64,000 nucleotides of DNA from Pseudoalteromonas spongiae UST010723-006. Its GTDB lineage: Bacteria > Pseudomonadota > Gammaproteobacteria > Enterobacterales > Alteromonadaceae. The stretch lies in the NCBI RefSeq assembly GCF_000238255.3, contig NZ_CP011039.1, positions 168,501-232,500 of the forward strand, written 5' to 3'. Below are positions 7,447 through 44,632 of this stretch, one piece after another. The notes beneath the pieces were generated by a model. That model worked only from the letters and a program-made list of their open reading frames with translations, made no database searches and had not been told where the DNA came from. Position 1 is the stretch's first letter. Each line of letters opens with the position of its first letter. A program made the position numbers and the translations under genes.

Positions 7447-7716
7447 CTAGAGCGTGTTGACCTTTGCTGTTTATTTCTGCAGCAGTTTGTTTGGCATTTA
7501 GACGAGGCAGAGCGATTGTAGTGTAGTTATTTTACATAAATGAGCGATAACACAGTGTAAATGGCAAACAAGCGCTGCCAGTAGGGTTCAACCCCAAACC
7601 GTTGTGCTCTTTGTTGTTGCTTTTTGACTTAGCCCGCTAGGTCAACAAAGTGCCGCCGCGTTCAAAACGGTTTGGATTTGAACAGAATTTAGACCGTAAA
7701 GATTAACACGCTCTAG
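7447..7716. repeat. MITE-like palindromic repeat, copy 1 (270 bp)
   Basis: Terminal inverted repeats: left end CTAGAGCGTGTTGACCTTTG, and the right end reads CTAGAGCGTGTTAATCTTT on the other strand. Inside are two further self-complementary blocks: GCAGCAGTTTGTTTGGCATT pairs with AATGGCAAACAAGCGCTGC, and a second arm around AAACCGTT pairs with AACGGTTT. The central part holds a nested stem CTTTGTTG / CAACAAAG. There is no open reading frame. A second copy of nearly equal length is at 44243-44511. It fills the gap between the pilin pair and the PepSY gene. Confidence 0.85.
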
Positions 7717-7766
7717 CTTAGCAAAGACGATATTACGAGCGGAAAAACCCAATAACGAGAACAATA

Positions 7767-8486
7767 ATGAAAAAATCGTGGTTTAAATGGGCGCGTAAGT
7801 GCCACAAATGGTTAGGTTATTTACTCGCGTTACAAGTATTCGCATGGTTATTGGGTGGCTTAGTTATGAGTGCGATTCCACTGGAATATGTACACGGTAA
7901 ACACCTTGCCAAACGACAGTTAGAAAATCCTTTCTCGCAAAATGTATATACAAGTAATTTTGATAACTTTAAGCAATACAATATCGGATTGAAAAATGTC
8001 AATTTCTTACACTTCTTAGAGACTCCTGTAATTGAACTAGTCGGCCATAAAGAGCGAGTTTACTTGCATGGCGAAACGGGAGAGAAACTCGAGGCACCTA
8101 ATAAACAGCAAATTATCAGACAGGCAAAAGCTCATTACTTGGCTGATAGCCAAACCATAGACGCGACCGCATCACTGTTAAAAGAGGGACCGAGAGAGGT
8201 CGGTTATAAAAGCAATATTTGGCGTATAGACTTTGCGGATAATGTTAACACTACATTGTATATACAAGCTGATTCGGGTCAGGTAATTACTGTACGTAGC
8301 ACTATTTGGCGTATTTTTGATTTCTTTTGGATGCTGCACATAATGGATTATGACGAGCGTGAAGATTTTAATAATCCATTATTAATTAGCTTTGCCGCTG
8401 TTGCTGTATTGTTTTGTATGTCAGGAATGATGTTGTTGTTTCAAAATATGCCTTTTAGAAGAAAACGAAAAGTTCTGGCAAATTGA
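7767..8486 (+). CDS. PepSY-domain inner-membrane protein
   Basis: A 239-residue protein with an N-terminal transmembrane helix (about residues 18-38, starting WARKCHKWLGYLLALQ), a central periplasmic part with two weak PepSY-like stretches, and a C-terminal helix near residues 207-227 followed by a basic tail. The KxHKWLG pattern and the late helix resemble PepSY-TM proteins, which often sit with iron uptake or reductase functions. It is monocistronic in appearance, and its exact role is not known. Confidence 0.7.
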   Translation: MKKSWFKWARKCHKWLGYLLALQVFAWLLGGLVMSAIPLEYVHGKHLAKRQLENPFSQNVYTSNFDNFKQYNIGLKNVNFLHFLETPVIELVGHKERVYLHGETGEKLEAPNKQQIIRQAKAHYLADSQTIDATASLLKEGPREVGYKSNIWRIDFADNVNTTLYIQADSGQVITVRSTIWRIFDFFWMLHIMDYDEREDFNNPLLISFAAVAVLFCMSGMMLLFQNMPFRRKRKVLAN

Positions 8487-8576
8487 TTTGTTGTCATAAA
8501 GCTTTCTTATAAGTGCCGCTAATTTGTCATCGGATGTTTTTAGCGTAAGACTTATTACACATAAGGAAGCGCGAAT

Positions 8577-9371
8577 ATGGCAAAGCAATATTACTCCTGT
8601 ATTTGGATCTCAGATGTGCATTTGGGTTACAAAGACTGTAAGGCTGAATTCTTACTGGATTTTCTCACCAATACAGAATGCGATGTGCTTTACTTAGTTG
8701 GCGATATCATTGATTTATGGTCGATGAAACGACAATTTTACTGGCAACCAAGCCACTATCAAGTGTTAGAGTGTATTCGTAACAAAGCTAACTCTGGCAC
8801 ACGCGTTATTTATATTCCCGGCAACCATGATGAAACCTTTCGCGCTTATGTTGGCGAAGCATTTATGAATGTTGAAGTGCATCGCAGTTTTATTCACACA
8901 GCCAAAACCGGTAAGCGTTTTTTGCTTGTGCATGGCGATGATTTTGATTCTGCAACACGTTATAGCAAACTGATCAGTATTATTGGCGATAGCGCATACG
9001 ATTTTTTACTGTTTTTGAATCGTTGGCACAATCGTGTGCGGCGCTTATTCGGCACTCACTATTGGTCGCTTGCGTCTTGGATTAAAAACCGAATTCATAA
9101 AGCACGCCAAGCAATTGCTGCGTTTGAAAAGGCAGCCGTTCACGAAGCAAAAAAGCAAGGTGTTGATGGCATTATTTGCGGTCATATTCATCAACCAGAC
9201 ATTAAAAAAATCGATGGCATTTTGTATTGTAATGACGGTGATTGGATAGAAAACTGCACTGTGCTGGTGGAGGATGAGTCAGGCCGTATTGAGTTGTTGC
9301 ATTGGTCTGATATTCAAACCAGCTTGAAAGTGGTCGATTTAAGTCAGAAACACAGCGAGCAGGCTGCTTAA
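8577..9371 (+). CDS. Metallophosphoesterase, UDP-2,3-diacylglucosamine diphosphatase (LpxH) related
   Basis: A 264-residue calcineurin-type phosphoesterase. All metal motifs are visible in order: D13-x-H15 (SDVHLG), GDIIDLW near residue 42, GNHDE near 83, HGDDFD near 121 and GHIHQPD at about 202. This set, with no transmembrane region, fits the COG2908 family of LpxH-like enzymes that remove UMP from UDP-diacylglucosamine in lipid A synthesis. It resembles the longer LpxH paralogues of marine gammaproteobacteria more than canonical LpxH, so the substrate is uncertain. AAGGAAG precedes the ATG. Confidence 0.8.
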   Translation: MAKQYYSCIWISDVHLGYKDCKAEFLLDFLTNTECDVLYLVGDIIDLWSMKRQFYWQPSHYQVLECIRNKANSGTRVIYIPGNHDETFRAYVGEAFMNVEVHRSFIHTAKTGKRFLLVHGDDFDSATRYSKLISIIGDSAYDFLLFLNRWHNRVRRLFGTHYWSLASWIKNRIHKARQAIAAFEKAAVHEAKKQGVDGIICGHIHQPDIKKIDGILYCNDGDWIENCTVLVEDESGRIELLHWSDIQTSLKVVDLSQKHSEQAA

Positions 9372-9435
9372 ATTTGCTTTGATGCTTGAGTTTGTAGATG
9401 CTTTAGCTTGAGCTGCGGCATCTAACACCTACTTG

Positions 9436-9957
9436 CTACTCTTTTTCGATGGTAAGAATGACTTCACCTACTTTGATACCAAACTTAATAATTTCCGTTC
9501 GGTTGATAAGGCGTTTTTCATTAATCAAAAACATCCAATCGTCTAGCGTGACTTCGAGCGGTTCGCCTTGGTAGCTTATGACTAATTGATAACGCCAATA
9601 AAGTGCAGAGCCTTTAGCCGTGCCCATCGCAGTACCTACCACATCATTGGCGGTGCCTTTGTAATTGCCGCCGCCTAGGTTTTCTAAATACCAAGTACGT
9701 GTTTGTTTTTCCCCGTCGTCATAAACAAACCATTCTTCGAGTTTACCTTTATCGTCTTGCCACGTACCCACTAAATCAACACTAAAGCGTCGTGTTAATG
9801 CGCCTGAGCGGTCAAGCACTACACCGTGAGCCGTTAGTTTACCGTTAAAGAATTGCTCTAATTTAAGGTCGGGAGAAGTACTTGTGTAATCATTAATATC
9901 TGGGCTTGAACATGCTGACATTAATATGGTTAGTGCCACAATTAGCAATCGTTTCAT
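9436..9957 (-). CDS. DUF3833 family lipoprotein
   Basis: A 173-residue lipoprotein: signal peptide with lipobox LMSAC, Cys at residue 16. The mature part is the DUF3833 type (LEQFFNGKLTAHGVVLDRSG, then a beta-rich body). DUF3833 genes are a steady companion of cyclopropane synthase/DUF1365 clusters in ECF-ChrR regulons. It is the last gene of the minus-strand stress operon, overlapping the preceding stop by four bases. The function is unknown; a lipocalin-like lipid-handling role is plausible. Confidence 0.8.
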   Translation of the reverse strand: MKRLLIVALTILMSACSSPDINDYTSTSPDLKLEQFFNGKLTAHGVVLDRSGALTRRFSVDLVGTWQDDKGKLEEWFVYDDGEKQTRTWYLENLGGGNYKGTANDVVGTAMGTAKGSALYWRYQLVISYQGEPLEVTLDDWMFLINEKRLINRTEIIKFGIKVGEVILTIEKE

Positions 9958-10460
9958 TTTTTATCTCCAACAAGTTTTGCTCGCAATTTTGGGCGAGTGG
10001 TTTTTTCCGATAACCAAATATTTAAGAATGCATCGCCAAAATCAGGATCGTTTACTGTGCCTAAAAGCCCTTGGTGATTGAAAAAGCTTGCGCTGTTGTC
10101 TTCATTGCGCGTCACAATCAGCATGTCGTTCTTTTTAATGTTAGGCCAAATGGTAGCGAGTTCATCTAGCCACTTGGGTATGTTTTGATGGGTCACGCCA
10201 ATGTGTTGCCATTGGTCTGCAGTTGCTTCTATTAAGTCCTCTTTGTCTATGTCGCGGTAATAGGTGATTTTAAGCGCGAGTTTAGCGTCGTCAAAGGAGT
10301 AACGCGTTTTGCTGCCAAATAGTTCGGCTTTGTATAGGTGCCAAAATAGCACTTTCATTTCACCTTCACCGTATTTAGTAAGTTGGCTTGTTTGTATCGC
10401 AAACAGACTTGGGGCGAATAAAAAGGTCGCAAATAGTAATGTTTTAAACATGGCTAACAT
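9954..10460 (-). CDS. Exported chalcone isomerase-like domain protein
   Basis: A 168-residue protein with a signal peptide (hydrophobic run to about residue 21). The mature sequence has the pattern of bacterial chalcone isomerase-like proteins: GEGEMKVLFWHLYKAELF, ALKITYYRDI, and a late GDAFLNIWL. In bacteria these bind fatty acids or related lipids rather than flavonoids. It follows DUF2878 by four bases and overlaps the DUF3833 start, so it is cotranscribed in the stress operon. Confidence 0.8.
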   Translation of the reverse strand: MLAMFKTLLFATFLFAPSLFAIQTSQLTKYGEGEMKVLFWHLYKAELFGSKTRYSFDDAKLALKITYYRDIDKEDLIEATADQWQHIGVTHQNIPKWLDELATIWPNIKKNDMLIVTRNEDNSASFFNHQGLLGTVNDPDFGDAFLNIWLSEKTTRPKLRAKLVGDKK

Positions 10461-10464
10461 CCAG

Positions 10465-10965
10465 TTAGTTGTGTTTAGATTCTACGAGCCTTTGTTTAAA
10501 AACGATCAATGCGGGCAGCAGTAGTGCCCAAATAATTGCGTACACAGTAAAGAGTGATAGTTGGCTTAAAGATGTGATGATGGCAGAAAAATTAAGTGCA
10601 CCAAGGTAACTCAGTGCACCACCAAATGCGCCAATAATGGCAACTAGCCATAGCTTACAATTACCTAACCAACTTAATGAATGATTAATTGAAAGTACAA
10701 ACATAACCCACAGGCATAGCAGCCAAAGTGGGAATTGCTCGGCGGCAAAACTAATCACATTCAGTTGAAAGAGTATGTAATCAATCACGCAACCAAAAAG
10801 GGCAAAGGGTAATAGCTTTGCATCGCTTCGTTTTGTTGGCGATAAAGCAAAGTGAAGGGCAACGATTAATGGAGTCAGCCAGCTGGCATTTGCTGTGAGT
10901 AGCGCACAGCAAAACCAAGCTAGCTGAAATAAAACAAGGTTAGTAAGCCAAAATTTGCTGGTCAT
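10465..10965 (-). CDS. DUF2878 family integral membrane protein
   Basis: A 166-residue, strongly hydrophobic protein with about five transmembrane segments. The sequence (WLTNLVLFQLAWFCCAL, FGCVIDYILFQL) fits DUF2878, regularly found in cyclopropane synthase/DUF1365 clusters. Its first codons overlap the end of the preceding synthase gene by 26 bases. No biochemical role is established. Confidence 0.75.
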   Translation of the reverse strand: MTSKFWLTNLVLFQLAWFCCALLTANASWLTPLIVALHFALSPTKRSDAKLLPFALFGCVIDYILFQLNVISFAAEQFPLWLLCLWVMFVLSINHSLSWLGNCKLWLVAIIGAFGGALSYLGALNFSAIITSLSQLSLFTVYAIIWALLLPALIVFKQRLVESKHN

Positions 10966-12214
10966 GATTATCGCGATAATGAGGCTTACGCATAACGAGC
11001 TGATGGGTACTTATCACGCGCTCAATGAATGCGCCTTCGCAATAACATAAGTAGAAGTGCCACAGACGCTTAAATTGCTCATCAAAACCAAATTGAGTTA
11101 ACTCTGACCAGGCGTTATCAAATTTCATGCGCCAATCGTAAAGTGTTCGCGCATAATGTAAGCCAATGTCTTCCACGTTATCGATCATCATATTAGTTTG
11201 TTCGGCAATGTGCTGATTCATTACCGCATTAGACGGTAAACAGCCTCCCGGAAAAATATAACGTTGAATAAAATCAACATTATTGCGGTAGTGTTCGTAA
11301 CGGGCATCTAAAATGGTAATTGCTTGAATCAGCATTAGGCCTGAGTCTTTCAGCAGGTTGTTACATTTAGCAAAAACCTCCGCCATAAACTTGTGACCAA
11401 CTGCTTCAATCATTTCGATTGAAACTAGCTTGTCGTATTTACCTTCCAGTAAGCGGTAGTCTTTTTTCAGTAATGTGATTTTATCTTCTAACCCTTCGGC
11501 TTTTACTTTTTCGACGGCGTACTCGTATTGCGCGTCAGAAATTGTGGTTGTAGTAACCTTGCAGCCATAATTCTTAGCGGCAAAAATAGCTAATCCGCCC
11601 CAGCCGGTACCGATTTCAATTAAATGGTCACTTTCAGAGAGTTTAAGCTTGTCACAAATGGTTTTTAATTTATTAAGTTGTGCTGAATGCAAGTCTGTCG
11701 CTTCATTTGAATAGATGGCGCTTGAGTACATCATCGTGCTATCTAAAAAGCGGGTGTAGAGCTCGTTACCTAAATCATAATGGGCGAGAATGTTTTTCTT
11801 TGAGCCAGATTGTGTATTGGCATTGCCCCAGTGAAACAAAAAGTTTTTAATTTTAGTTAACAGCGATTTTTTAGCTTCTACCTGATCGAGCGTACTGCTG
11901 CTGCGGGCAAAAACACGGATTAACTCGGTTAAGTTAGGTGATGTCCACTTTTTGTTGAGGTAGCCTTCTGCTGCTGCAATGCTACCGCCTTTAATAAAAT
12001 CGATATATAGGCTTGGATCAAGCACTATTAACTTGCCGCGCAATTCACTGTCTTGGTTGCCTAGAAACGTAATCTGACCGTTTTCTTCAATTTCTACGCC
12101 GGCATTTTCAATTTGATTCAGTGCGTTTAAAACGAGTGAACGACAGCGTGATGTAAACCACGATAACTCGCTTTCCTGCGCTAGATTGGTTGAGCTGGTA
12201 CTTTGCTGCTCCAT
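10940..12214 (-). CDS. cfa: Cyclopropane-fatty-acyl-phospholipid synthase family methyltransferase
   Basis: A 424-residue SAM-dependent enzyme that would methylate membrane-lipid acyl chains. Seen: the AHYDLGNELY motif that places the lipid, and the SAM site IEIGTGWGGLA, followed by the catalytic-domain segments IEAVGH and FIQRYIFPGGCLPS. It is longer than E. coli Cfa (382) through an N-terminal extension. In ECF-ChrR clusters this paralogue may make cyclopropane or other modified (for example furan) fatty acids that help against singlet oxygen; which product is made cannot be read from sequence. Confidence 0.88.
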   Translation of the reverse strand: MEQQSTSSTNLAQESELSWFTSRCRSLVLNALNQIENAGVEIEENGQITFLGNQDSELRGKLIVLDPSLYIDFIKGGSIAAAEGYLNKKWTSPNLTELIRVFARSSSTLDQVEAKKSLLTKIKNFLFHWGNANTQSGSKKNILAHYDLGNELYTRFLDSTMMYSSAIYSNEATDLHSAQLNKLKTICDKLKLSESDHLIEIGTGWGGLAIFAAKNYGCKVTTTTISDAQYEYAVEKVKAEGLEDKITLLKKDYRLLEGKYDKLVSIEMIEAVGHKFMAEVFAKCNNLLKDSGLMLIQAITILDARYEHYRNNVDFIQRYIFPGGCLPSNAVMNQHIAEQTNMMIDNVEDIGLHYARTLYDWRMKFDNAWSELTQFGFDEQFKRLWHFYLCYCEGAFIERVISTHQLVMRKPHYRDNHDQQILAY

Positions 12215-12216
12215 AA

Positions 12217-12957
12217 TTATCCTCTCGCGTTTGGGTGCGCAATAAATGGGATGCGTTTGGCAAAAAGCTTAAGTGCTTGCCAGTAAATGCCAGCGACTAC
12301 TTTTAATGTCATTGCTGGTGTACTAAGCCATGTTTTAAGCATATTTCTGCGCGAAAATTCGCAGCGTGATAATGCTACTGTGGCGTCAAACACTTTCTCT
12401 GATTTATGGTTTTCGATATGAATAAGTACTTTTTCTTGTGGCGCTTTTACACGCCATACATATTGCATATCTAAATCCATAAACGGCGACACATGAAATG
12501 TTTTATCCATGCGTTGTTGTTTAGAAATATCCACCGCATAGTAGTGACGCTCTAACCAAGGCGTATTCGAAACTTCAACTAACATGGTTGTACAAACATT
12601 ATCTTGGTCGTAACAAAAGAAAAAATTTGCGGGGCTAAAATAGATACCGAAATTTCGGCATTGCCCCATAAAGGTTACTTTTGTGCCATCCCAGTTACCA
12701 CCTAACTGTGTAACTTTACTGGCAATACGTTGCTTTAAGTTGCCCGGTTCACCTTTAATATAATCGTCTTGAAAAAAGCTAATTGGCGCGAATTTTTTAA
12801 GGCTAAACAAACGGCTAGTTGTGGCGACTAAGTCTAGTTCGTCTAAATCAAGTGCCAGCATATACATGCTATAGCTAAAGGCATGTTGCTTAGGAGAAAA
12901 GCGTCGATGCCTAACTTGTCCACAGTATATGCCGCTATTCATAGTTATAGTTCGCAA
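12217..12957 (-). CDS. DUF1365 domain protein
   Basis: A 246-residue protein matching DUF1365: near the start YCGQVRHRRFSPKQHAFSY, then LDLDEL, and a central FWVSPF-like segment here written FHVSPFMDLD. DUF1365 proteins are almost always next to a Cfa-like synthase and an FAD amine-oxidase-like protein, as here, and are thought to act with them on lipids. It overlaps the FAD gene by 13 bases. The N-terminal MRTITMNSG could also begin at M6. Confidence 0.85.
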   Translation of the reverse strand: MRTITMNSGIYCGQVRHRRFSPKQHAFSYSMYMLALDLDELDLVATTSRLFSLKKFAPISFFQDDYIKGEPGNLKQRIASKVTQLGGNWDGTKVTFMGQCRNFGIYFSPANFFFCYDQDNVCTTMLVEVSNTPWLERHYYAVDISKQQRMDKTFHVSPFMDLDMQYVWRVKAPQEKVLIHIENHKSEKVFDATVALSRCEFSRRNMLKTWLSTPAMTLKVVAGIYWQALKLFAKRIPFIAHPNARG

Positions 12958-14195
12958 TCAAAGCGTTTACATACGTCGAGCGCACTGCGAACGCCATCTT
13001 CATGAAAGCCGTTATACCAGTACGCACCGCAAAAGTGGGTGTGATTGGTGCCGCAAATTGTGTCTCGTTGCTGCTGCGCCGCCATACTTTGTTTATTAAA
13101 CACTGGATGATGGTAAACAAAGCTGCGTAAAATTTTGCTTTTATCAATTTGTTCAGTTTGATTGAGCGTAACACAGTAAGTAGTGTCCGTTTTAAGTCCC
13201 TGTAATATATTCATATTATAGGTTACTGCAGCAGGGCGTGGGTTATTACTGTCTAAACGGTAATTCCAGCTTGCCCACGCAAGTTTGCGTTTTGGTAGCA
13301 TGTTTATGTCGGTGTGCAGTACCACTTCATTCTTGCTGTAAGGAATATTACCGAGTACAGATTGTTCTTGCTCGCTCGCATCGCCTAGTAGTTTTAATGC
13401 CTGATCGGAATGACAGGCAAATACAACGTCATCGAATATTTGAGTTGTACCATCTGTAAATTCTAAAGAAATACCGGTATTGCCGCGCGTAACTTGCTTA
13501 ATATCGCAGTTGAGGCGAATTTTATCGGCGAAGCGGCGCGTTAATGGCTTAATGTATTCTCGCGAGCCGCCTTTTATAACATGCCATTGCGGTCTATCGC
13601 TGATATTTAATAAGCCGTGGTTATAAAAAAAGCGAACAAAGAATTTCAGCTCGAAGTCTCGCATTTCTTGTAAGCTGGTGGACCAAATAGCCGCGCCCAT
13701 CGGCAAAATATAATGCTGGCAAAAGAAATCGCTAAAGGCGTGTTGGTCTAAAAAGTCGCCGAGTGTGAGCGCTGGATCTATATCGGTTTGATGTAGCTGC
13801 TTACAGAGTTTATTAAAGCGCAGAATATCTTTGATTAGCAACCAAAAACGAGGTTTAAAAATATTTGAACGCTGTGCAAATAATGAATTGAGACCGTGGC
13901 CATTATATTCCATTTGGCTTTGCACATTGTGCACGCTAAAGCTCATTTCAGTATCTTTGTAAGCAACTCCAATCTGCGATAATAGCTTTAAAAAATTAGG
14001 GTATGTTTTGTTATTACAAACAATAAAGCCGGTATCAATTGCGTGCTTTTCGCCGTTATGCTCAATATCAACAGTGGCTGTGTGTCCGCCAATATAGTCG
14101 TTTTTTTCAAATAGGGTGATATCGTACTTTTTTGATAGTAAATAAGCGCAGGTTAAGCCTGAGATACCACTGCCAATAATGGCTATTCTTTTCAT
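12945..14195 (-). CDS. FAD-dependent oxidoreductase (amine oxidase / phytoene desaturase-like)
   Basis: A 416-residue flavoprotein. The N-terminal dinucleotide fold is clear: GSGISG at residues 8-13, then FEKNDYIGGHTATV. A late FCGAYWYNGFHEDGVRSA segment matches the C-terminal FAD contact of this family. It belongs to the COG2907 group that accompanies DUF1365 and Cfa-like genes. The likely substrate is a membrane-lipid acyl chain, by inference from context. Its ATG overlaps the SDR stop by one base. Confidence 0.87.
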   Translation of the reverse strand: MKRIAIIGSGISGLTCAYLLSKKYDITLFEKNDYIGGHTATVDIEHNGEKHAIDTGFIVCNNKTYPNFLKLLSQIGVAYKDTEMSFSVHNVQSQMEYNGHGLNSLFAQRSNIFKPRFWLLIKDILRFNKLCKQLHQTDIDPALTLGDFLDQHAFSDFFCQHYILPMGAAIWSTSLQEMRDFELKFFVRFFYNHGLLNISDRPQWHVIKGGSREYIKPLTRRFADKIRLNCDIKQVTRGNTGISLEFTDGTTQIFDDVVFACHSDQALKLLGDASEQEQSVLGNIPYSKNEVVLHTDINMLPKRKLAWASWNYRLDSNNPRPAAVTYNMNILQGLKTDTTYCVTLNQTEQIDKSKILRSFVYHHPVFNKQSMAAQQQRDTICGTNHTHFCGAYWYNGFHEDGVRSALDVCKRFDCEL

Positions 14196-14917
14196 TATTT
14201 TGTCATCCTAATTGCAAGTTTGCGCCAGATAAAAAACGGTAACAGTGCGAGTGTTTTAAGTATTAAGGTAAAGCGTTTGGGAAAATGAATATCGTAGTGT
14301 TTGTTTTTCATACCTCGATAGATTGCCTGCGCAGCTTGTTCACTGGTAATACGGCTAGGCATCGGGAAATCATTTTTATCGGTTAGAGGTGTTGCGACAA
14401 ACCCCGGGTGAATTGTACTTACCCCAATATTGTGGCGTGCTAAATCAATGCTTAGAGTTTTCGCTAAATAGCTTACGCCAGCCTTTGACGCACCGTAGGC
14501 TTGTGAGCGAGTAAGTGGCACATAAACAGCACTTGAACTCATTAAACCAAGTTGCCCGCCCGTATTTAACTGGGGCAACCACGCCTCTAAACAATAACCA
14601 ACAGAAATAAGGTTGGTGTTGATCACGCGGGCAAACAAATCACCATTGAATTGTTTTGCGTTATCTATGTATTCACAGGTACCCGCGTTTAATATGATTT
14701 GATCGAGTTTGATGTTTTTATCTAACGCGCTAAATATTGCTTGCTTGTCATTTAGATCAAAAACCAGCGGTATGATGCTGTTAAATTCGCTTGCGAGCTT
14801 ATCGAGTTTCTCTTGGTTGCGCCCACACGCGTACACAGTAAAACCTTGAGTAGCATAGTATTTAGCGAGTGATTCACCAATGCCAGATGAGGCACCTGTA
14901 ATTAGTACCGTATTCAT
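14195..14917 (-). CDS. Short-chain dehydrogenase/reductase
   Basis: A 240-residue classical SDR: the cofactor motif TGASSGIGE at residues 6-14, the NAG motif (LNAGTCEY), a catalytic Ser in SSSAVY and the Y-x-x-x-K motif YGASK. The C-terminal end is basic and hydrophobic (LPFFIWRKLAIRMTK), which may dock on the membrane. It overlaps the neighbouring NTF2-like gene by four bases, so translation is coupled. The substrate is unknown. Confidence 0.88.
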   Translation of the reverse strand: MNTVLITGASSGIGESLAKYYATQGFTVYACGRNQEKLDKLASEFNSIIPLVFDLNDKQAIFSALDKNIKLDQIILNAGTCEYIDNAKQFNGDLFARVINTNLISVGYCLEAWLPQLNTGGQLGLMSSSAVYVPLTRSQAYGASKAGVSYLAKTLSIDLARHNIGVSTIHPGFVATPLTDKNDFPMPSRITSEQAAQAIYRGMKNKHYDIHFPKRFTLILKTLALLPFFIWRKLAIRMTK

Positions 14918-15345
14918 GCGGTGGCACGCTTTTTAACTAAATTTATTAACCCGCCAAGTACAGGAATATGTTGATAAAGCATGTCGGCAGCGTTGAAATA
15001 ATCGCGGTGAAAAATGACTTTGCCGTCTTGATACTCAAGGTAACTGTTGCCGTCAAATGACACTTCTTTGCCTGCTTTAATTTTGCTATGCGAGAAGTAC
15101 ATGGTCCAGTAGAGGCTAACGGCATTATCTTGTTGCAGTACCTTTTTCATTTCAAAACGCCCAGCGTCTAAGTTTTCGTACAGATTAGAAAAATACTTGG
15201 TAAGTGCAGATAGGCCATCAATGCGGTGTAGTGGGTCAATAAACACAACATCTTGATGATAAATATTAGCCAGTAGCGACAAGTTGGCGCGATCCAACTT
15301 GTTGTACATAGTTAAAAAGTCATCAATATGCTGTGTGTTACTCAT
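14914..15345 (-). CDS. NTF2-like / SnoaL-like fold protein
   Basis: A 143-residue single-domain protein with the NTF2-like pattern: an N-terminal helical stretch (DDFLTMYNKLD), VVFIDPLHRIDG, and beta strands ending in a YLEYQDGKVIFHRDYF segment. Such cone-shaped folds act as isomerases, hydrolases or binding proteins. In ECF-ChrR clusters it sits between photolyase and SDR, as here. It overlaps the photolyase start region by eight bases. Confidence 0.8.
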   Translation of the reverse strand: MSNTQHIDDFLTMYNKLDRANLSLLANIYHQDVVFIDPLHRIDGLSALTKYFSNLYENLDAGRFEMKKVLQQDNAVSLYWTMYFSHSKIKAGKEVSFDGNSYLEYQDGKVIFHRDYFNAADMLYQHIPVLGGLINLVKKRATA

Positions 15346-17698: not shown

Positions 17699-17706
17699 GG
17701 TCCCTC

Positions 17707-18997: not shown

Positions 18998-19026
18998 AGC
19001 GCTCTGACAATAAAATCATAGTAGAC

Positions 19027-19611: not shown

Positions 19612-19644
19612 AAGTAGCTTATTTTGAACAACATAATATGCTTA

Positions 19645-19670: not shown

Positions 19671-19687
19671 TCTACAAGGAGATTACT

Positions 19688-31125: not shown

Positions 31126-31126
31126 T

Positions 31127-33016: not shown

Positions 33017-33019
33017 TAA

Positions 33020-33634: not shown

Positions 33635-33747
33635 TAAATTTCCTTGAGAAATGTCTCTAAATTGTCAACACAATGGCTAAAAGCGCCAAAAAATTCAACT
33701 ATTTTGCTATCATATCGACAATTACCCAAATTTAATACGAGAACAAT

Positions 33748-36456: not shown

Positions 36457-36572
36457 TTAATCTGTTTTATTGGTTTTATCGTTGTGAAACTGATGTAAAC
36501 AACATGCTAACACTTGATTTGTTCCTAAAAAATTTGGCAAAATCCTATAGTTCGTACTAGTTGAGAATAACA

Positions 36573-37073: not shown

Positions 37074-37118
37074 TCGCTTTTTGATACACTACGCCCAATT
37101 TAATTTTAGAGAAAGATT

Positions 37119-37739
37119 ATGTCTGCCAATGTAAACAAAATTTGCACTATGCTAGAGATGCAAAACGCGATGAATACTAAAGTCCATGCCGAATGGTTTA
37201 ATCAGGGATTTGAGTGGTATCGTGCGATTTGGGTTGAGTGTGCTGAAATGCTAGATCACTACGGTTGGAAGTGGTGGAAGAAACAAACACCTGACACTGA
37301 ACAAGTAATTCTTGAGCTGGTAGATATTTTCCATTTTGGTTTATCGCTTCGAATCGATGGCGAAACAAGTTATCAAGAGTTAGCAGAGCAATTAACTGCT
37401 GAGCTAGAAAAGCCAACTCAAGCTGATGATTTTAAGCAAACACTTGAGCTACTTGCTGCAAGTGCCGTAGCAAACAAGACATTTGATGCGGCTGCATTTG
37501 CCGGGTGTATGGCGCAAATTGGCATGGATATCGACGATTTATATCGTGGTTATGTTGGTAAAAACACACTTAACTTTTTCCGCCAAGATCATGGCTATAA
37601 AGATGGCAGCTACATTAAAATGTGGAACGGTCAAGAAGATAACGAACACTTAGTTGAAGTAGTTAAATCACTCGACATTAATCAAGAAAACTTTGCTGAG
37701 CTGGTATACAAAGGCTTAGAGGCTCGCTACCCAGCGTAA
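37119..37739 (+). CDS. Dimeric dUTP diphosphatase
   Basis: A 206-residue all-alpha NTP pyrophosphatase of the dUTPase_2 family, hydrolysing dUTP to dUMP. Seen: the helix WYRAIWVECAEMLDHYGWKWWKK with metal-binding E-x-x-E-like spacing and ELVDIFHF. The C-terminal half has GKNTLNFFRQDHGYKDGSY, the family's signature. It is distinct from trimeric Dut. A strong terminator follows. Confidence 0.93.
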   Translation: MSANVNKICTMLEMQNAMNTKVHAEWFNQGFEWYRAIWVECAEMLDHYGWKWWKKQTPDTEQVILELVDIFHFGLSLRIDGETSYQELAEQLTAELEKPTQADDFKQTLELLAASAVANKTFDAAAFAGCMAQIGMDIDDLYRGYVGKNTLNFFRQDHGYKDGSYIKMWNGQEDNEHLVEVVKSLDINQENFAELVYKGLEARYPA

Positions 37740-37763
37740 GTTATAAAACAAATTAAAGAGTAC

Positions 37764-37792
37764 AAAAAGGCCACTAATGTGGCCTTTTTTTA
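37764..37792 (+). terminator. Intrinsic terminator after dUTPase
   Basis: Stem AAAAGGCCAC/GTGGCCTTTT with a TAAT loop and a T run. The A-run on the other side lets it also end yrfG on the minus strand. Confidence 0.9.
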
Positions 37793-37796
37793 TGAG

Positions 37797-38453
37797 TTAA
37801 GTTATTGGCAGTAAAGTGCGGTAGTCTTCAATTGATAAGTAGTTATCAATAGTGCGGGTTGCTTTGGTGGAATCTGGGTTTGCAACCGCAAGAAGATGTT
37901 TAATACCATACTGTTTTGCCGCATCAAGCACAGGCAAGCTGTCATCAACAAATAAAGTTCTGGTTTTATCAAAGCCAAGTTGTTGCTCCACTTGTTGCCA
38001 CAAGCGCTGAGATTCTTTACTTACGCCAAACTCATGGGTTGAAATAAGCGCATCTAAATGCACATCAAAAGCTGTTTGTTCAATTTTGAGTGACAGGCTA
38101 TCTGGATGCGCATTGGTCAGTAAAATAAGTTTTTTACCGGCCTCTTTAAGCGCTTTTAAAAAGTCAGGCACGTCTTCTCGAATGCTAATTAAGTGCTTAA
38201 TTTCTTGCTTTAACTCGACAATTGGCAAATCGAGTTCCTGCTGCCAATAATCTAAGCAATACCACTGTATTTGTCCTTCCACTTGTTGGTATTTTTCTGA
38301 CAGCTGTGCAAACGCTTGTTGTTTAGTGATACCGTGTTTTTCTGCAAGTTTTTGTGGGATTAGTTCAAGCCAATAATGGTTATCGAAATGAAGGTCTAAT
38401 AATGTGCCGTCCATATCAAATAAAACGGTATCGATTTCCTGCCAATTTAACAT
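37797..38453 (-). CDS. yrfG: GMP/IMP nucleotidase, HAD family
   Basis: A 218-residue HAD phosphatase with motif I DMDGTLLDL (residues 13-21), motif II LTNAHPDS, a catalytic Lys region and motif III VDDSLPVLDAA. This matches YrfG, which dephosphorylates GMP and IMP. It is divergent from nudE with 60 bases between, an arrangement kept in many gammaproteobacteria. Confidence 0.9.
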   Translation of the reverse strand: MLNWQEIDTVLFDMDGTLLDLHFDNHYWLELIPQKLAEKHGITKQQAFAQLSEKYQQVEGQIQWYCLDYWQQELDLPIVELKQEIKHLISIREDVPDFLKALKEAGKKLILLTNAHPDSLSLKIEQTAFDVHLDALISTHEFGVSKESQRLWQQVEQQLGFDKTRTLFVDDSLPVLDAAKQYGIKHLLAVANPDSTKATRTIDNYLSIEDYRTLLPIT

Positions 38454-38513
38454 AGGTTTTTTAGTTTAAAAGTTTTATTATAAATTTAGACTGTAGTTTA
38501 ACAGAGTTTCAAG

Positions 38514-39068
38514 ATGGCCGAGAATAAAGGATTAACACTCCCCCAAATTACAAACGTTACCGAGGTGTCGCACAGTAAATTATTTACGGTAGAAGCGATG
38601 GACTTAACGTTTTCAAATGGCGTTAAAAGGCAATATGAAAGGGTAAAAGGCGGGGGGCGAGGTGCGGTGCTTGTAGTGCCTGTGGATAGTGAAAATAATC
38701 TAATTTTAGTGCGAGAGTACTGTGCTGGTACCCATGACTATCAACTCGGGTTCCCAAAAGGTCTAATTGATCCTGGTGAAACTGCGGTGCAAGCTGGTAA
38801 TCGTGAGCTAAAAGAAGAGGCTGGATTTGGTGCAAAGCAACTTGCTGAGCTAAAGTTAGTATCGTTAGCCCCGAGTTATTTTAACGCCAAAATGCACATA
38901 TTGTTGGCGCAAGATTTATACCCCGAGAAGTTAGAAGGGGATGAACCTGAACCACTTGAAGTTATTAAGTGGCCATTAAGCGATTGGCAAACACTATTAC
39001 AGCAAACCGACTTTACCGAAGCGCGCAGCGTTGCTGCACTATTATTAGCAAAACAGTATTTATCTTAA
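38514..39068 (+). CDS. nudE: ADP compounds hydrolase, Nudix family
   Basis: A 184-residue Nudix hydrolase for ADP-ribose, Ap3A and NADH-type substrates. The Nudix box G-x5-E-x7-R-E-x-x-E-E is intact (GLIDPGE...RELKEEAGFG). The N-terminal region has VKGGGRGAVLVVP, as in NudE. Start context is GTTTCAAG-ATG. It is followed by cysQ after 21 bases, making a likely two-gene unit that recycles nucleotide by-products. Confidence 0.92.
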   Translation: MAENKGLTLPQITNVTEVSHSKLFTVEAMDLTFSNGVKRQYERVKGGGRGAVLVVPVDSENNLILVREYCAGTHDYQLGFPKGLIDPGETAVQAGNRELKEEAGFGAKQLAELKLVSLAPSYFNAKMHILLAQDLYPEKLEGDEPEPLEVIKWPLSDWQTLLQQTDFTEARSVAALLLAKQYLS

Positions 39069-39089
39069 TTTAATTTACAGTAGTACCGA

Positions 39090-39881
39090 ATGAAAGAATT
39101 TATTGAGCCTTGTATTGAAATAGCGCGACAAGCAGGCGACGCTATTTTAGATGTATACCATCAAGATGACATTCAACTATGTGAAAAGTCAGATAACACG
39201 CCTGTAACAAAAGCAGATTTAGCGGCAAATGAGGTGCTATTAGCGGGTTTAAAAGCGCTAGCACCAAATATCCCGATTATGTCTGAAGAAACGCCAATTC
39301 CTGCGCTTTCAGACCGTGAATCGTGGCAGCGATACTGGCTGCTAGATCCGCTAGATGGCACAGGTGAGTTTGTGCTTAAAAGTGGTGACTTTGCAGTAAA
39401 TATTGCGCTTGTTGAAAACAATAAACCGGTGTTTGGCGTTATTTTTTGGCCAACCGAAGGGGTTACATATTGGGCGATGCAAGGTGTTGGTTCATTTAAA
39501 CGTGAAAATGGCGAAGATGTTCAGCTGCAAGTTCAAAAGCAATCTCAATTAAAGTTAGCTGTCAGTAGGCGACAAAATATTGCAACGGTAAGTCAGTACA
39601 TTGACTCAGAGTTTGATACTTTGCCATTAGGTTCGTGCTCATTAAAAGCGTGTGCAATCGCTGAAGGACGTGCTGATGCTTTTATGCGAATAGGGCCAAC
39701 TGGAGAGTGGGACACTGGCGCATCACAAATAATTGTGGAAATGGCAGGTGGTAAGCTTTTTGATGCGGAATTCAATCCTATTACCTATAACCAGCGCGAA
39801 ACAACTGAAAACCCTGACTTTATTATTACGGGCGATCAAAGTTACCCTTGGCAAGAAATGATCAAACCGCATAAGCGTTGA
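39090..39881 (+). CDS. cysQ: 3'(2'),5'-bisphosphate nucleotidase
   Basis: A 263-residue inositol-monophosphatase-fold enzyme that turns PAP (3'-phosphoadenosine 5'-phosphate) into AMP, removing the by-product of PAPS reductase. Seen: the metal site D-P-L-D-G-T (LLDPLDGTGEF) and the later GEWDTGASQIIVEMAGG. It follows nudE, and its substrate PAP is made by CysH at the left side of this window. Confidence 0.94.
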   Translation: MKEFIEPCIEIARQAGDAILDVYHQDDIQLCEKSDNTPVTKADLAANEVLLAGLKALAPNIPIMSEETPIPALSDRESWQRYWLLDPLDGTGEFVLKSGDFAVNIALVENNKPVFGVIFWPTEGVTYWAMQGVGSFKRENGEDVQLQVQKQSQLKLAVSRRQNIATVSQYIDSEFDTLPLGSCSLKACAIAEGRADAFMRIGPTGEWDTGASQIIVEMAGGKLFDAEFNPITYNQRETTENPDFIITGDQSYPWQEMIKPHKR

Positions 39882-39986
39882 TGCTAATTTGAGCGGTTAA
39901 ACAGTTTTTAAAAGAAAACACTTGCATAACTGTCATAAATCCTTATTATAGCGCCTCACTTAAGCAGCAAAGCTTAAGAATACAGG

Positions 39987-40063
<77 letters not shown>

Positions 40064-40136
40064 ACTCTTTGGTAGCCAATTCCTTTAGAATGAATTAAAA
40101 CTTCTAAGGCTTGTTCACATTCGTGAACCATTCTGA

Positions 40137-40213
<77 letters not shown>

Positions 40214-40466
40214 TTTCTTAATTCTCCCAATTTTTAAATCTTTATAAATAGTTTATTTCGCCCTACGGTCGTCGTTGGTGGCCAACGCGTATCATTTCCA
40301 GCTCCTTTAATCATTTCTTAATATTTCAACTTTTCAGTTTATTTAGATAGTTTTCTTCTCTAGAAATTACCCCTTTATATTTAACGCTTTTAGCTTTGCG
40401 GCAAATTATCATTAGCGCTTAATATCGCGTTAAGTTGAATTCAATAAGTCGTAAACTATTAATTTT

Positions 40467-40926
40467 CTATGAAATACCTTTCAAACAAAGCGTTAGTCTA
40501 AGCATATCTTTGTGCTGAATTCCATTTTCGAAAATTGGCTCAGGGTAGTTGTCTAAAAAGTGGTTTTTAATCACACTTTCAACACGAAACCCTAATTTTT
40601 GATAAAAGCTAAGTTGATGACCAAAAGTTCCAGTGCCTAATTCAATAATTTCAACGCCTTTGTATTTTATCTCGGCAATCGCATATGCCAGCAACTTAGA
40701 ACCGATCCCCTGCGCTTGATGAGTTGGTTGCACCGCAATATTCATTAGTTCAATAGAGGTGTGTGAGCGTCGTTGAAAGATACAAGCAGCAGTTACAGTA
40801 TTATCGATAACTGCGGCAAAGCAGATGCCATTTGCTAAATATGCCTGTACTTTTTCAATGCCTTGGGTCGGCTTCGAGTAAAAGAGCTAAAGGAAGCTTT
40901 TCAGGCTCAATGGGTATTAGCTGCAT
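40467..40926 (-). pseudogene. GNAT acetyltransferase, broken by a frameshift
   Basis: The minus-strand frame from ATG 40926 reads MQLIPIEPEKLPLALLLEAD and then meets a stop. In another frame from about 40865 the sequence continues QGIEKVQAYLANGICFAAVI and then the acetyl-CoA-binding region QPTHQAQGIGSKLLAYA down to 40467. Deleting one C in a CCC run near 40868 restores a full GNAT protein of about 150 residues. Either a true frameshift or a sequencing error. The start is six bases after the J-domain stop. Confidence 0.75.
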
Positions 40927-40931
40927 CAGAG

Positions 40932-41558
40932 TTACTTACTTTGCGTGAAATGTTTTACCAGTAACTGATAGGCATGGTTTGCTGTAATGTAGTCGCTAGT
41001 ATGCTGGTTATTTTGTTTATCTGGATGTGATGCGAGTGCAATTTTATACCAAGCACGCTTTATCTGTTTCAAATTAGCGTCACGAGCTAAGCCAAGCGTG
41101 TTAAATGCAGTAGTTAAATCATCTGATGTTATTGTGCTATGTTCAGCGTAGTACTGCCAAAAGTTATCCAGTAACTTGTTTATTTCATCGTTTGAGATAG
41201 CGATATTGTTAAAGTCTAAATAATACTCTGAAAGCGCAGGGTTATGATTTGTGACTTGGTTTTCTTGATACTTAACAAGCTTTATATTGATTGATTCAAT
41301 AATTAAACTATACCCTAACTCTTTTGCATCATGTTGAAGGTTGAATAGGGCATTCATTACCAGAAAGTTTTGCTTAAACAGGTTTTGCTCTGGGTTTGAA
41401 TCTAGGGTGTGCAGTAGCTTTTGTTGCTTCAATTGGCTAAAAAGCGCGTTGAGTTTGCAATTCGAGCATTGCAAAAGCGTTACTAAAATAGCTTGTTGTA
41501 GTGTTAATGAGAGTGCTTCAAAGTTGCTATTCAAAATGTTCACTTCCTGTTTTAACAC
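40932..41558 (-). CDS. DNAJ-related J-domain protein
   Basis: A 208-residue protein. The N-terminal two thirds match the DNAJ-related domain (DUF-type region found only with J domains in gammaproteobacteria: LQQAILVTLLQCSNCKLN). The C-terminal J domain has HPDK at residues 178-181. It would stimulate DnaK ATPase; the client is unknown. The acetyltransferase gene follows within six bases. Confidence 0.88.
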   Translation of the reverse strand: MLKQEVNILNSNFEALSLTLQQAILVTLLQCSNCKLNALFSQLKQQKLLHTLDSNPEQNLFKQNFLVMNALFNLQHDAKELGYSLIIESINIKLVKYQENQVTNHNPALSEYYLDFNNIAISNDEINKLLDNFWQYYAEHSTITSDDLTTAFNTLGLARDANLKQIKRAWYKIALASHPDKQNNQHTSDYITANHAYQLLVKHFTQSK

Positions 41559-41605
41559 TTGCTGAGAAAGTCAGGCGACACAATGCCGCCTAACATTTGT
41601 AACCT

Positions 41606-42811
41606 TTAGTGCTTTTTAGCGTAGCTTTCGGCTTCGCGCCAAACACGCATTGTGTTACCGCCTAATAACTTAATAATATCTTTATCAGAGTAACCGCGAT
41701 CTAATAAACCTTGCACTAGGTTAGGGTAGCTTGCTACGTCTTTCAAACCGATCGGCAGTGAGTCACCAACGCCGTCGTAGTCAGAACCAATACCAACGTA
41801 ATCAATACCAATTAGTTTTACTACATGGTCAATATGATTCAGCACTTGCTCTAAACTTGCAAACGGGTATGGGTTTTTAGCACTGTATGCTTTTCTGAAA
41901 TCTTTTACTTGTGAACTATTTTCGCCGAAAGTCTCTTTGGCCTGTTTACGTGCCGCTTTCATTTTATCGCCCCACGCACCCGCTGCAGAGGTTACAAAGC
42001 TTGAACCAAAGTTAATCTGAATAACACCGCCGTTTTCTTTGAGAGCAAGCAGCATTTTGTCATCCATATTGCGCTCAAAACCCGGTGTATATTTACGCAG
42101 TGATGAGTGCGATGCAATCACTGGCACTTCAGATAATTCCATAACCTGATAAAACGCATCGTCTGAAATATGCGAAACATCAATCAGCATGCCGATTTTA
42201 TTCATTTCTTTTACTAGATCTTTGCCAAACGGGCTTAACCCCTTCCACTTACGACGAATATCATAGGACGAGTCAGAAATATGGTTGCTTTGTGAGTGCG
42301 CAAGGGTAATGTAACGCACACCACGGTCAAAGAAATGCTTTAGGTTTGCCATTTCCCCTTCCATTGGCGAGCCGTTTTCCATACCCATAGCAAGTGACAT
42401 TAATCCTTGCTTAAACTGTGCTTCAACGTCGGCAGTACTGGTTGCAATAGCAAACTTATCCGGTGCACGTTGTGCTAATGCTTCCATGCCATCAATTAAT
42501 TGATTGGCTAGTTGATAACTTTTCCCTTTGCCTTCAAATTCGAGGTTTGCTGGAATGTAAATCGACATAAAAGGCACATTTAAACCGCCTTTGACACCTC
42601 TAGGATAGTCAAAATCACCACCTTCCGTGGCTTTTGAGACATCATCCCATTTGTGGTAAATGCGGTAAGGTACATCGATATGGGTGTCGATTAATAAGTT
42701 CTCCTGTGCGAGTTTTACTGCTTTTTCTGATGCTGTGTATTGGGTTGCACCTGCTGTGAAGGTTGCCATTATGGCACTTGCGATTAAGCTTGTTTTTATT
42801 AGATATTTCAT
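41606..42811 (-). CDS. M19 family membrane dipeptidase
   Basis: A 401-residue exported zinc dipeptidase with a signal peptide ending FTAGA-T. Metal ligands are visible: the HID in DTHIDVPYR, the GMENG segment with its Glu, SHSSLR and a C-terminal GIGSDYDGVG. This is the renal-dipeptidase family, acting on dipeptides in the periplasm, where it often works with cell wall or small-peptide uptake. It is monocistronic. Confidence 0.93.
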   Translation of the reverse strand: MKYLIKTSLIASAIMATFTAGATQYTASEKAVKLAQENLLIDTHIDVPYRIYHKWDDVSKATEGGDFDYPRGVKGGLNVPFMSIYIPANLEFEGKGKSYQLANQLIDGMEALAQRAPDKFAIATSTADVEAQFKQGLMSLAMGMENGSPMEGEMANLKHFFDRGVRYITLAHSQSNHISDSSYDIRRKWKGLSPFGKDLVKEMNKIGMLIDVSHISDDAFYQVMELSEVPVIASHSSLRKYTPGFERNMDDKMLLALKENGGVIQINFGSSFVTSAAGAWGDKMKAARKQAKETFGENSSQVKDFRKAYSAKNPYPFASLEQVLNHIDHVVKLIGIDYVGIGSDYDGVGDSLPIGLKDVASYPNLVQGLLDRGYSDKDIIKLLGGNTMRVWREAESYAKKH

Positions 42812-42933
42812 AGTGGATTCTGTGTCGTTGTTTTCTTTATTGTGCTTGCTTTAATGAGTAAAGCAATAGAATCGCGATAGAAATGTTGTGAGCTGTTGGT
42901 AATCGAAGTTGTGAATAAGAAAGTGAAAAGTTA

Positions 42934-42960
42934 AAAAATAGAAAAGGCGCTGCCTTTTCT
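42934..42960 (-). terminator. Intrinsic terminator after yheU
   Basis: On the minus strand the stem AGAAAAGGC/GCCTTTTCT is followed by ATTTTTT. It overlaps the yheU stop codon. Confidence 0.85.
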
Positions 42961-43192
42961 ATTCATAATCTGGGTGTGATTCAAAGTCACTGGCTGGCAT
43001 AATATTAATTGTTTCGTGTAATTCAGAAAATACTAATACCGCTGTGCCAGTTTTGAGCTGTGCTCTCACTTGCTCAACTTTTAAGTTGAGTGCTGCCTCT
43101 TCTTCACCGTAGTCAGTGCCTTCTCGCAGAACAAATTCTTTAATTAAATTAGTCAGAGTATCTGGGTCAATTTGTTCAATCGGAACGATCAT
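42959..43192 (-). CDS. yheU: YheU family protein
   Basis: A 77-residue protein that begins [13 protein letters not shown], contains [11 protein letters not shown] and ends SHPDYE; this is the UPF0270 (YheU) family of small proteins of unknown function. The start at 43192 is preferred to a longer frame because the ATG overlaps the yheT stop as ATGA, and E. coli YheU starts the same way. Same order as E. coli yheT-yheU. Confidence 0.93.
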
Positions 43193-44175
43193 TTTAATTT
43201 GCCTAAAAGTTGTTGCTGGAAAAAATGGGGAACTTGCTGCTCTAGCCAAAAAATCGGCTTAAATGGGTTTTTACCGCTTATAAAGCCAACATGTCCACCT
43301 TGCTTGGAAACCATCAGTTTAACCGCGTTGCTTACGTCTTCTTTTTGCGGAATAGCTTCTTGTGACAACATAGGGTCATCTTTTGCATGAATCACTAAAG
43401 TGGGAGTTGTGATGCGTTTTAAATACTGTTTGCCGCTTGATTTTAGGTAGTAATCGGCCGCATCTATAAAACCATGTAATGGGGCTGTTACTTTGTTGTC
43501 GAATTCCCATAAATCGTAAATGTTTTCTAGTTGCTTTGCCGTTAAATTTATTGATTCTTTAATGTTATCAAGCTTTCTTGCTGTGGACTTTTTTAGCCTA
43601 TCCAGTAAATATTTTTGATAAAGCTTAAAGCAACTTTTTTGAATCACTTTACATGATGACGCCAAGGCAAACGGGGCTGAAACAACGGCTGCGGCATCTA
43701 GCTGACATTCGTCTTCATACTCACCTAGGTACTTGGTTAATACATTGCCACCGAGTGAAAAGCCAACAGCCATTAATGGCTTATTTGGAAAGCGTTGCTT
43801 TAATATATTAACTAAAAAATGCAAATCGCTGGTTTCGCCGCTGTGATAGGCGCGTGCCTGCAAATTAGCTTTTTGTCCACAGTTTCTAAAGTGTAATAAC
43901 ACTACATCAAAACCGGCCAAAGTTAGGGCTTTCATCATGCCTTTAGCGTAGAAGCTATCAATATTTCCTTCTAAGCCATGCAGCACAATTGCTAATGGTT
44001 TGTCGTCGGCAGCAATATGCTGAGAACTCCATATCAGTTGCAGAAAGTCGTGATCGGGCGTAGTGATTTCTTCAATATTGTAATCAACGGTAAGGTTTGG
44101 GCGAAAAAAGCGCGGTAAAATGGTTTGTGCGTGCCGATTGGTCATCCACCAAGCTGGCTTAAAGTTTTGATCCAT
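43189..44175 (-). CDS. yheT: Alpha/beta hydrolase (YheT type)
   Basis: A 328-residue alpha/beta-hydrolase. Nucleophile elbow [15 protein letters not shown] near the oxyanion region, a DDP segment (IHAKDDPML) and a late catalytic His in QGGHVGF. Family COG0429 (YheT) is of unknown substrate. The ATG at 44175 is taken as the start; the longer frame would need a TTG at 44187. It overlaps yheU by four bases. Confidence 0.9.
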
Positions 44176-44207
44176 GGCTGTGTACAAAAGAAAAATATTT
44201 GTTCAGT

Positions 44208-44632
44208 GTATCATACCAATTCGCAATTATAATTATTCATTTTTAGGGACTGTTGACCTTTTAAGTTCGTTTTTGCAGCAGTTTGATTGGGTTTTATACA
44301 AGGCAGAGGCTGCGTGGCATAGTTATTCTATGTGAGCCAGCCGATAACACAGTATAAAAGCCAATCAAGCGCTGCCGAACGGTTCTTTTGAGCGCACTTT
44401 TCTCATTGTTGCTCGATATTCGCTTAGGTTGCTAGGCCACACATCGAGCGCCGCGATAAAAGCACGCTCAATGAGAACAAAAATAGAACAGCAAAGATCA
44501 ACAGACCCTAGGCATTAAATCTGTTGCTAACCGCGTTAAAGTTTTTTATGTAGCGCAGCTTTATAGTGAAATGCTTGCCGTGCTACCAGCGCTTAAAATA
44601 GAGCGCTTAATTATCCAAATTGGTATTAGAAA
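44208..44632. repeat. Host repeat with MITE inserted (TACCAATT ends)
   Basis: Left end ATACCAATTCGCAATTATAA and right end CCAAATTGGTATTA are inverse to each other at the termini (ATACCAATT/AATTGGTAT). Between them lies MITE copy 2. To the right of it sits a stretch GCTAACCGCGTTAAAGTTTT shared with the 22679-22776 palindrome. This looks like an older repeat split by the MITE. Confidence 0.5.
44243..44511. repeat. MITE-like palindromic repeat, copy 2 (269 bp)
   Basis: Same size and plan as copy 1 at 7447-7716. Terminal repeats are TAGGGACTGTTGACC on the left and GATCAACAGACCCTAG on the right. The first inner stem (GCAGCAGTTTGATTGG with CCAATCAAGCGCTGC) carries changes relative to copy 1 on both arms. 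The second inner stem, around TTTTGAGCGCACTTT and AAAAGCACGCTCAATGAG, has sequence unlike copy 1 but still pairs with itself. No open reading frame. Confidence 0.85.

Follow-up and report, generated by a model that had tools for sequence, protein, structure and literature searches.

The analysed window is a 64,000-nt stretch of contig NZ_CP011039.1 of Pseudoalteromonas spongiae UST010723-006, and it contains two miniature inverted-repeat transposable elements (MITEs), copy 1 at 7450-7713 (264 bp) and copy 2 at 44246-44508 (263 bp). A sequence-only reading of this DNA had placed them at 7447-7716 and 44243-44511 and had described common terminal repeats around a plan of two inner hairpins; both elements lie where it put them, and the repeats and the plan are confirmed. 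Both have the short size (70-300 bp), the many copies, and the terminal inverted repeats (TIRs) of MITEs, and TA is present on either side of each as a target-site duplication, which is partly assumed since the boundaries were themselves placed at the flanking TA.

In copy 1, the left TA duplication (7448-7449, inside CTAG) is followed by the left TIR (GAGCGTGTTGACCTTTG..., 7450-7478, plus strand), a structured hairpin motif with its sense on the plus strand (hp1, 7479-7579, 94.5 bits with model R3, supported by covariation), a short spacer (7580-7584), the same motif inverted with its sense on the minus strand (hp2, 7585-7683, R3 39.0 bits, E 1e-7), the right TIR (7684-7713, minus strand), and the right TA (7714-7715). 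Copy 2 has the same order: left TA (44244-44245), left TIR (GGGACTGTTGACCTTT..., 44246-44274, plus strand), hp1 (44275-44376, plus strand, R3 99.0 bits), spacer (44377-44380), hp2 (44381-44478, minus strand, R3 62.0 bits, E 3.5e-14), right TIR (44479-44508, minus strand), and right TA (44509-44510). According to blastn, the 2 copies align in their first half with 75% identity, and the plan is common to both. Folded as single strands, they reach z-scores of −6.7 and −9.5, respectively, with 0 of 200 shuffles equally stable in either case. The stem arms agree with those written out in the sequence-only reading, apart from one G.G mismatch in the first stem of each copy (column pairs 16-87 and 17-86 of alignment A1). 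Copy 1 is flanked by 2 divergently oriented open reading frames (ORFs).

An inverted pair of one covarying hairpin motif

The interior of the element is a cassette of 2 inward-facing copies of one structured hairpin motif of ~100 nt, located 4-10 nt apart. The motif comprises a variable 20-bp stem, a strongly conserved internal loop (CAAGGC / AACNNNG), and variable inner stems; among 116 aligned matches its best-conserved parts are the two unpaired strands of this loop, CAAGGC being the 5' one and AACNNNG the 3' one. These 116 matches were obtained with R3 in 64 sources selected by the authors and form 46 neighbouring pairs, all 46 of which face inward, with a spacing of exactly 5 nt in 34; the remaining 24 matches have no detected partner. 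In many relatives, a CCC-NNN-GGG mini-hairpin, seen by eye, occupies the space between the 2 motifs. Hp2 is a diverged inverted homologue of hp1. The second stems had been described as unrelated between the 2 copies yet self-complementary, and the stems do vary, but both hp2 sequences match the same motif; they looked unrelated because the stems are free to change while the motif is not. Likewise, of the proposed three-hairpin structure the fold itself is kept, but it consists of a terminal-repeat stem and 2 inverted copies of a single motif.

The covariation between stem arms is genuine. When 31 first hairpins of the genus are aligned with plain MAFFT, two-sided changes affect 14 of the 32 pairs and 96.9% of cells pair; none of 500 shuffles attains the observed covariation score. 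With distant and second hairpins added (62 rows), the number of two-sided pairs grows to 28 of 32, and for the 116 phylum-wide matches it reaches 31 of 32, with 91.8% of 3645 pair cells being standard (the cells include 213 G.T and 67 A.C). For the same 116 rows, the covariation score equals 0.922, versus 0.214 ± 0.008 for shuffled rows and at most 0.196 for slid partners; a shift of the partners by 1-3 columns leaves at most 44.2% of the cells paired, compared with 91.8% in register. A large number of copies with unmatched arms, which would have argued against structural constraint, was thus not seen among these structure-selected matches. The stem sequences drift by compensatory changes, and the loops stay.

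Alignments A3, A4, and A5 were built by fitting rows to the model, and the 116 matches were both chosen by and aligned to the structure model. Because A4 and A5 are model-fitted and shuffle tests ignore relatedness, a tree-based null was computed as well, in which the inferred changes of each column are placed randomly on a FastTree tree (own script, not R-scape). In the A3-based tree and G.T tests, hp1 is represented by the first 68 of 143 rows (66 distinct in the tree test), with 13 lower-scoring hp1 rows excluded. For 79 MAFFT-aligned representatives, 5 pairs are significant under this null, 4 of them in the structure and 1 at a mismatch position of the same helix. Three sets of structure-fitted rows give 7, 11, and 3 significant pairs (6, 10, and 3 in the structure, respectively), and a pair left outside the drawn structure extends a helix. 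Among the 4753 column pairs tested for the 116 rows, 26 reach significance; 25 belong to the structure, and the other (columns 32-69) is near a helix. The statistical check across collected copies that the sequence-only reading had called for therefore supports its proposal of selection on the fold, not drift, together with the conserved asymmetric loops between changing stems and the plan kept phylum-wide. Overall, it is very probable that these elements belong to one family and that its fold is under selection.

Copies, terminal repeats and distribution

A search of the own genome (4,752,413 bases in two contigs) gives about 36 full or near-full copies, which fall into two subfamilies of one family, as well as a set of partial copies. 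Subfamily A has 5 full copies (L001-L005), including copy 1 of the window, and subfamily B has 30 copies (L031-L060, one split by an insertion) plus the degenerate L062, including copy 2. The B copies carrying an insert are up to 311 bp long. Five subfamily A remnants (L007, L008, L009, L010, and L013) retain the right end and part of hp2 only, with breaks at positions 150-166 of 270, which may be either chance or a sign of the half-element as a unit of its own.

Several copies carry insertions. An insertion that interrupts one copy carries a gene for a Y1 (IS200-like) transposase (L065:2558-2998, G000:C2, about 563 kb; PF01797, E 1.3e-38). An insert of ~47 nt with two hairpins (GCCTACATGGATGTAGG...GACGCGGAAGCTTT) follows the TGTT of hp2 in 8 of the 8 distinct contexts found; its hosts differ in stem sequence (L049, L051, and L053 in the own genome, and L090, L092, L095, L128, L142, L160, L212, L216, and L266), and its exact 40-nt core is present at 13 of 403 loci. 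It looks like a small IS200/IS605-type or REP-like passenger. Other short inserts are located within hp1, between GATAA and CAC (L006, L064, and L005). The L005 insert looks unrelated; those of L006 and L064 are similar to the one in hp2 and once more come after GTT, here on the opposite strand.

Most of the 46 motif pairs have ends of the type TIR1 (TAGGG..TGTT...). The same inward pair is also enclosed by TIR2 ends (TATACCC...CTTCAAG.TGC, ERIC-like) at L153, L183, L340, L344, and L358, and by TIR4 ends (AGGCTGTGTCCC-like) at L342, L343, L359, and L360. Two more end types around the motif were noticed by eye, TIR3 at L200 and TIR5 at L351 and L363. As for the site of copy 1, neither the TIR1 nor the AAGGCAGAG pattern is found there in four relatives, which fits an empty site, the loci being unaligned.

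An autonomous insertion sequence (IS) with TIR1 ends, as expected for a MITE of an IS5-type IS, is present in a sister species (L089, G016). It is 885 bp long, has GGGCGTGTTGATCTTTG ends inside CTAG, and codes for an IS5-family (IS5_3) transposase (NF033580, 274 bits, cut-off 110); similar ends occur at L098-L100 and L102. The transposase with matching ends that the sequence-only reading had suggested looking for was thus found in a sister species but not in the own genome. An IS5_3 transposase, encoded by an IS that shares the ends of the TIR1-type copies, probably mobilised these copies in trans. Of the 108 genus genomes, 24 contain matches to the L089 IS; many of these matches are fragmentary or interrupted by stops. 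That the element is a simple internal deletion of the IS was rejected: compared by eye, the L089 IS and the neighbouring MITE share ends only. At L089, L097, L098, and L124, an IS5_3 element abuts a MITE copy and the CTAG junction is common to both, as if the element ends recreate the target site.

Of the genomes surveyed, 84 of 108 in the genus, 226 of 395 in the family (45 of 52 genera), 175 of 394 in the order (47 of 114 genera), and 78 of 398 in the phylum (38 of 213 genera, including families outside the class) contain motif matches, with E limits per genome of 0.01, 0.01, 0.001, and 0.0001, respectively; copies per genome in all four surveys are lower bounds, the scoring having covered up to 37, 10, 10, and 10 candidates in each genome. 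A pattern search gave at least 120 stretches, 80 of which were listed, and follow-on analyses used 73 or 39 of those loci. Named carriers among the listed matches include Pseudoalteromonas, Shewanella, Parashewanella, Psychromonas, Alishewanella, Thalassotalea, Colwellia, and a Vibrio. In plasmid records (all 14 found), the best matches lie outside the listed genes, the gene table containing no RNA genes or repeats. A phage origin was rejected, with no match in viral contigs (one strict pattern) or in phages (blastn with copy 2). Rfam (4227 families, gathering score) reports for the window two tRNAs and no match to an element, and for five further carrier loci no match; a sub-threshold listing has 14 matches, none within an element. 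The two tRNA genes are in tandem at 39987-40210 and have equal Rfam scores.

Folding strand, selection and the candidate mechanism

Regarding the strand that folds, G.T and A.C pairs were counted in the sense of the motif with frequent-G.T positions excluded, which gives ratios of 67:35 for hp1 and 46:24 for hp2, the 2 motifs being on opposite strands; on the other strand hp1 has 6:51. Another count, which also covered the 13 lower-scoring hp1 rows, gives 174:52 for hp1 and 59:23 for hp2. The bias is perhaps slightly inflated, since model alignment prefers G.U over A.C. Each half seems to fold on the strand running inward from its own end, which fits mirrored transposon ends and also RNA that convergent genes produce from either side. 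A single RNA with both hairpins equally active is unlikely given that the G.T bias is found on opposite strands.

Changes at paired sites were divided into private ones and those shared by copies in three Pseudoalteromonas genomes, with 27 of 30, 17 of 20, and 16 of 16 copies kept and the rest more than 6% diverged. Private changes disrupt pairing in 33 of 61 cases, roughly the neutral expectation (64%, p 0.11), whereas shared changes do so in 6 of 24 (expectation 63%, p 2e-4); the difference has a Fisher p of 0.017 with small counts. A run on 26 copies reports 28 broken versus 33.1 expected for private changes and 3 versus 10.5 for shared ones. Selection seems to act on the copies that found new copies, not on every insertion.

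The genomic setting was analysed for parsed elements with intact loops and intact ends, using mechanical ORFs. None of 69 parsed elements lies inside a called ORF, 17 of 68 overlap an ORF edge, and the median distances to the nearest ORFs are 35.5 and 46 bp. Elements are enriched between convergent ORFs (30 of 96, versus 53 of 361 other gaps of at least 60 bp, p 5e-4) and depleted between divergent ones (11 of 96 versus 89 of 361, p 0.005), but the depletion is lost when all the remaining 609 adjacent ORF pairs serve as reference (p 0.23). ORF avoidance and convergent enrichment could be explained by insertion tolerance alone. No orientation bias was found (14 versus 16 co-directional). A Rho-independent terminator was rejected: copies read by eye show no T-run directly after either motif, and a terminator scan, which covered copy 2 only, gives 2 sites versus 1.2 expected, one of them overlapping the right end.

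The reading preferred here, held at somewhat less than even confidence and only marginally above the RNA reading described below, is that the motif is a cis-acting folded single DNA strand that promotes mobilisation. An IS5_3 transposase would move TIR1-type copies in trans, and a single DNA strand, with the same polarity at each end, would fold, for example, when the lagging-strand template is exposed. The folded strand would raise the chance of mobilisation of that copy, in cis. Fold-broken copies would persist as fossils and intact copies would found new ones, so that the fold would be conserved along source lineages, not per insertion. Fold-back of single-stranded DNA has been proposed as an amplification route for eukaryotic MITEs.

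Several points weigh against this mechanism. Double-stranded ends are regarded as the substrate of IS5-type DDE transposases, and G.T pairs are equally expected from RNA. The own genome yielded no IS5_3 transposase relative; within the genus, the motif is present in 21 of the 24 genomes with the IS (fragments included) versus 63 of the 84 others (Fisher p 0.27), and the IS as the cause of motif presence in a genome was rejected for this absence of association. The occurrence of the cassette behind several TIR types also means that no single transposase is its reader. Loop conservation is partly ascertained, as the pattern, the regular expression, and the models required or favoured those loops. 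Copies in several genomes lack hp2 or its tip (L136, L261, L277, and L295), so the presence of two motifs is sometimes dispensable. Finally, an earlier private/shared run, in which the parser lost 5 of 27, 8 of 20, and 7 of 16 copies, has the same direction with a Fisher p of 0.16. In the genome of L136 (G448), many hp1 matches share one score.

The association of the cassette with more than one set of ends suggests a host factor or some general single-strand step. More speculatively still, the family may be a phylum-wide selfish module in which a ~100-nt covarying hairpin, present as an inverted pair, has travelled with several unrelated systems of transposon ends and is conserved by selection on propagation rather than on the host, and would then mark a common single-strand step, in DNA or RNA, in bacterial MITEs.

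A serious alternative, though itself short of probable, is a role at the RNA level: transcripts reading through gene ends would contain the motif as a hairpin that stabilises or insulates 3' ends and makes insertions tolerable. As the copies face inward, a transcript from either side would meet a sense motif first, and orientation would be irrelevant. This agrees with the recurrent G.U beside the internal loop (GU in 55 of 114 cells of column pair 62-121), with the G.T bias in motif sense, and with the location of elements outside but near ORFs, often between convergent and, relative to gaps of at least 60 bp if not to all pairs, seldom between divergent ones. ERIC RNA is described as altering mRNA stability (PMC2229807). 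In contrast, the motifs read by eye are followed by no T-run and the terminator scan of copy 2 is close to expectation, orientation is unbiased, individual copies are not clearly constrained, Rfam has no match, and copy 1 itself lies between divergently oriented ORFs; moreover, enrichment at 3' ends is expected of any insertion that avoids promoters.

It is unlikely that the hairpins are sites of a single-strand nuclease (HUH/RAYT) or of a site-specific recombinase, as in REPINs or attC, with TIRs acquired later. The inverted hairpin pairs with strand-specific G.T resemble REPINs; integron attC core boxes have the form RYYYAAC/GTTRRRY. The ~47-nt insert found after the hp2 TGTT in 8 of 8 contexts, as a single-strand-specific element might be placed, and the Y1 transposase gene inside one copy speak for such sites. 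However, TIRs with a TA duplication are typical of DDE transposons, and the motif has about 100 nt, not 20-40.

Less probable again is template switching within hairpins, which would correct one arm from the other and keep the arms matched without selection. Long near-perfect inverted repeats are known substrates for such arm correction, and 10 private changes give Watson-Crick pairs versus 4.4 expected. The asymmetric unpaired loops inside the hairpin are, however, not homogenised, the G.T and A.C cells noted above suggest stepwise change, and private changes often remain uncorrected, as over half of them break pairs. The repeated exchange of hairpin arms that the sequence-only reading had offered as a second option is disfavoured as well, given that the unpaired loops show no homogenisation and that G.T intermediates occur frequently.

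Finally, an ordinary MITE with a functionless interior, whose covariation would be an artefact of ancestry and structure-fitted alignments, is very improbable: A3, A4, and A5 are indeed model-fitted and shuffles ignore relatedness, but covariation is also present in plain MAFFT alignments, the tree null retains 25 structure pairs among 26 significant ones, and slid partners lose at least half of the pairing.

Comparison with known systems

No description of this MITE family was recognised in the searched open-access literature, although it may have been mentioned before. MITEs are usually seen as empty transposon shells with hairpins that are a by-product of the terminal repeats. Here, a MITE interior has a clear covariation signal, is found phylum-wide, and is common to several kinds of ends. 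Two questions thereby become accessible to test: what lets certain MITEs become more numerous than the IS they derive from, and whether MITE spread, or the harmlessness of insertions, involves a folded single strand. It also gives a covariance model for annotating intergenic repeats for which Rfam has no entry.

Among known repeats, ERIC comprises one hairpin, not an inverted pair. Like the family described here, ERIC or IRU (127 bp) is, as described in PMC2229807 and PMC2267715, an intergenic MITE-like repeat that can fold as RNA. TIR2 relatives carry ERIC-like ends in comparison with the E. coli copy L376, but the window copies do not, and L376 also has the short words AAGGC and AACGCAG, which are similar to the motif. 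With filters off, R3 has no match up to E 10 at ERIC (601-727) of E. coli L376 and L377. Membership of the window copies in ERIC was rejected on their TIR1 ends and on this lack of an R3 match at the ERIC core.

REPINs of the REP-RAYT system resemble the family in having two hairpins in inverted orientation and many copies, and differ in lacking TIRs and a TA duplication and in being moved by a Y1 transposase. Their hairpins are given as 20-40 bp in PMC3733652, whereas the motif here has ~100 nt. Size and TIRs argue against assigning the elements to REPINs. CIR elements of Caulobacter and Brucella, according to the account in PMC2229807, share the arrangement of two long inverted-repeat arms and a linker, but contain GANTC sites and are only partly MITE-like; they are set apart here by their described features.

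As for the relation to a mobilising IS, the elements are comparable to IS-derived MITEs such as the R0 and R2 repeats of Pseudomonas fluorescens SBW25, which share inverted repeats with an IS and are thought, in the account of PMC2718517, to be recognised in trans. In R0 and R2, the stem is made up of the inverted repeats, with the core as its loop, whereas the interior of the elements described here is a conserved covarying cassette behind several ends.

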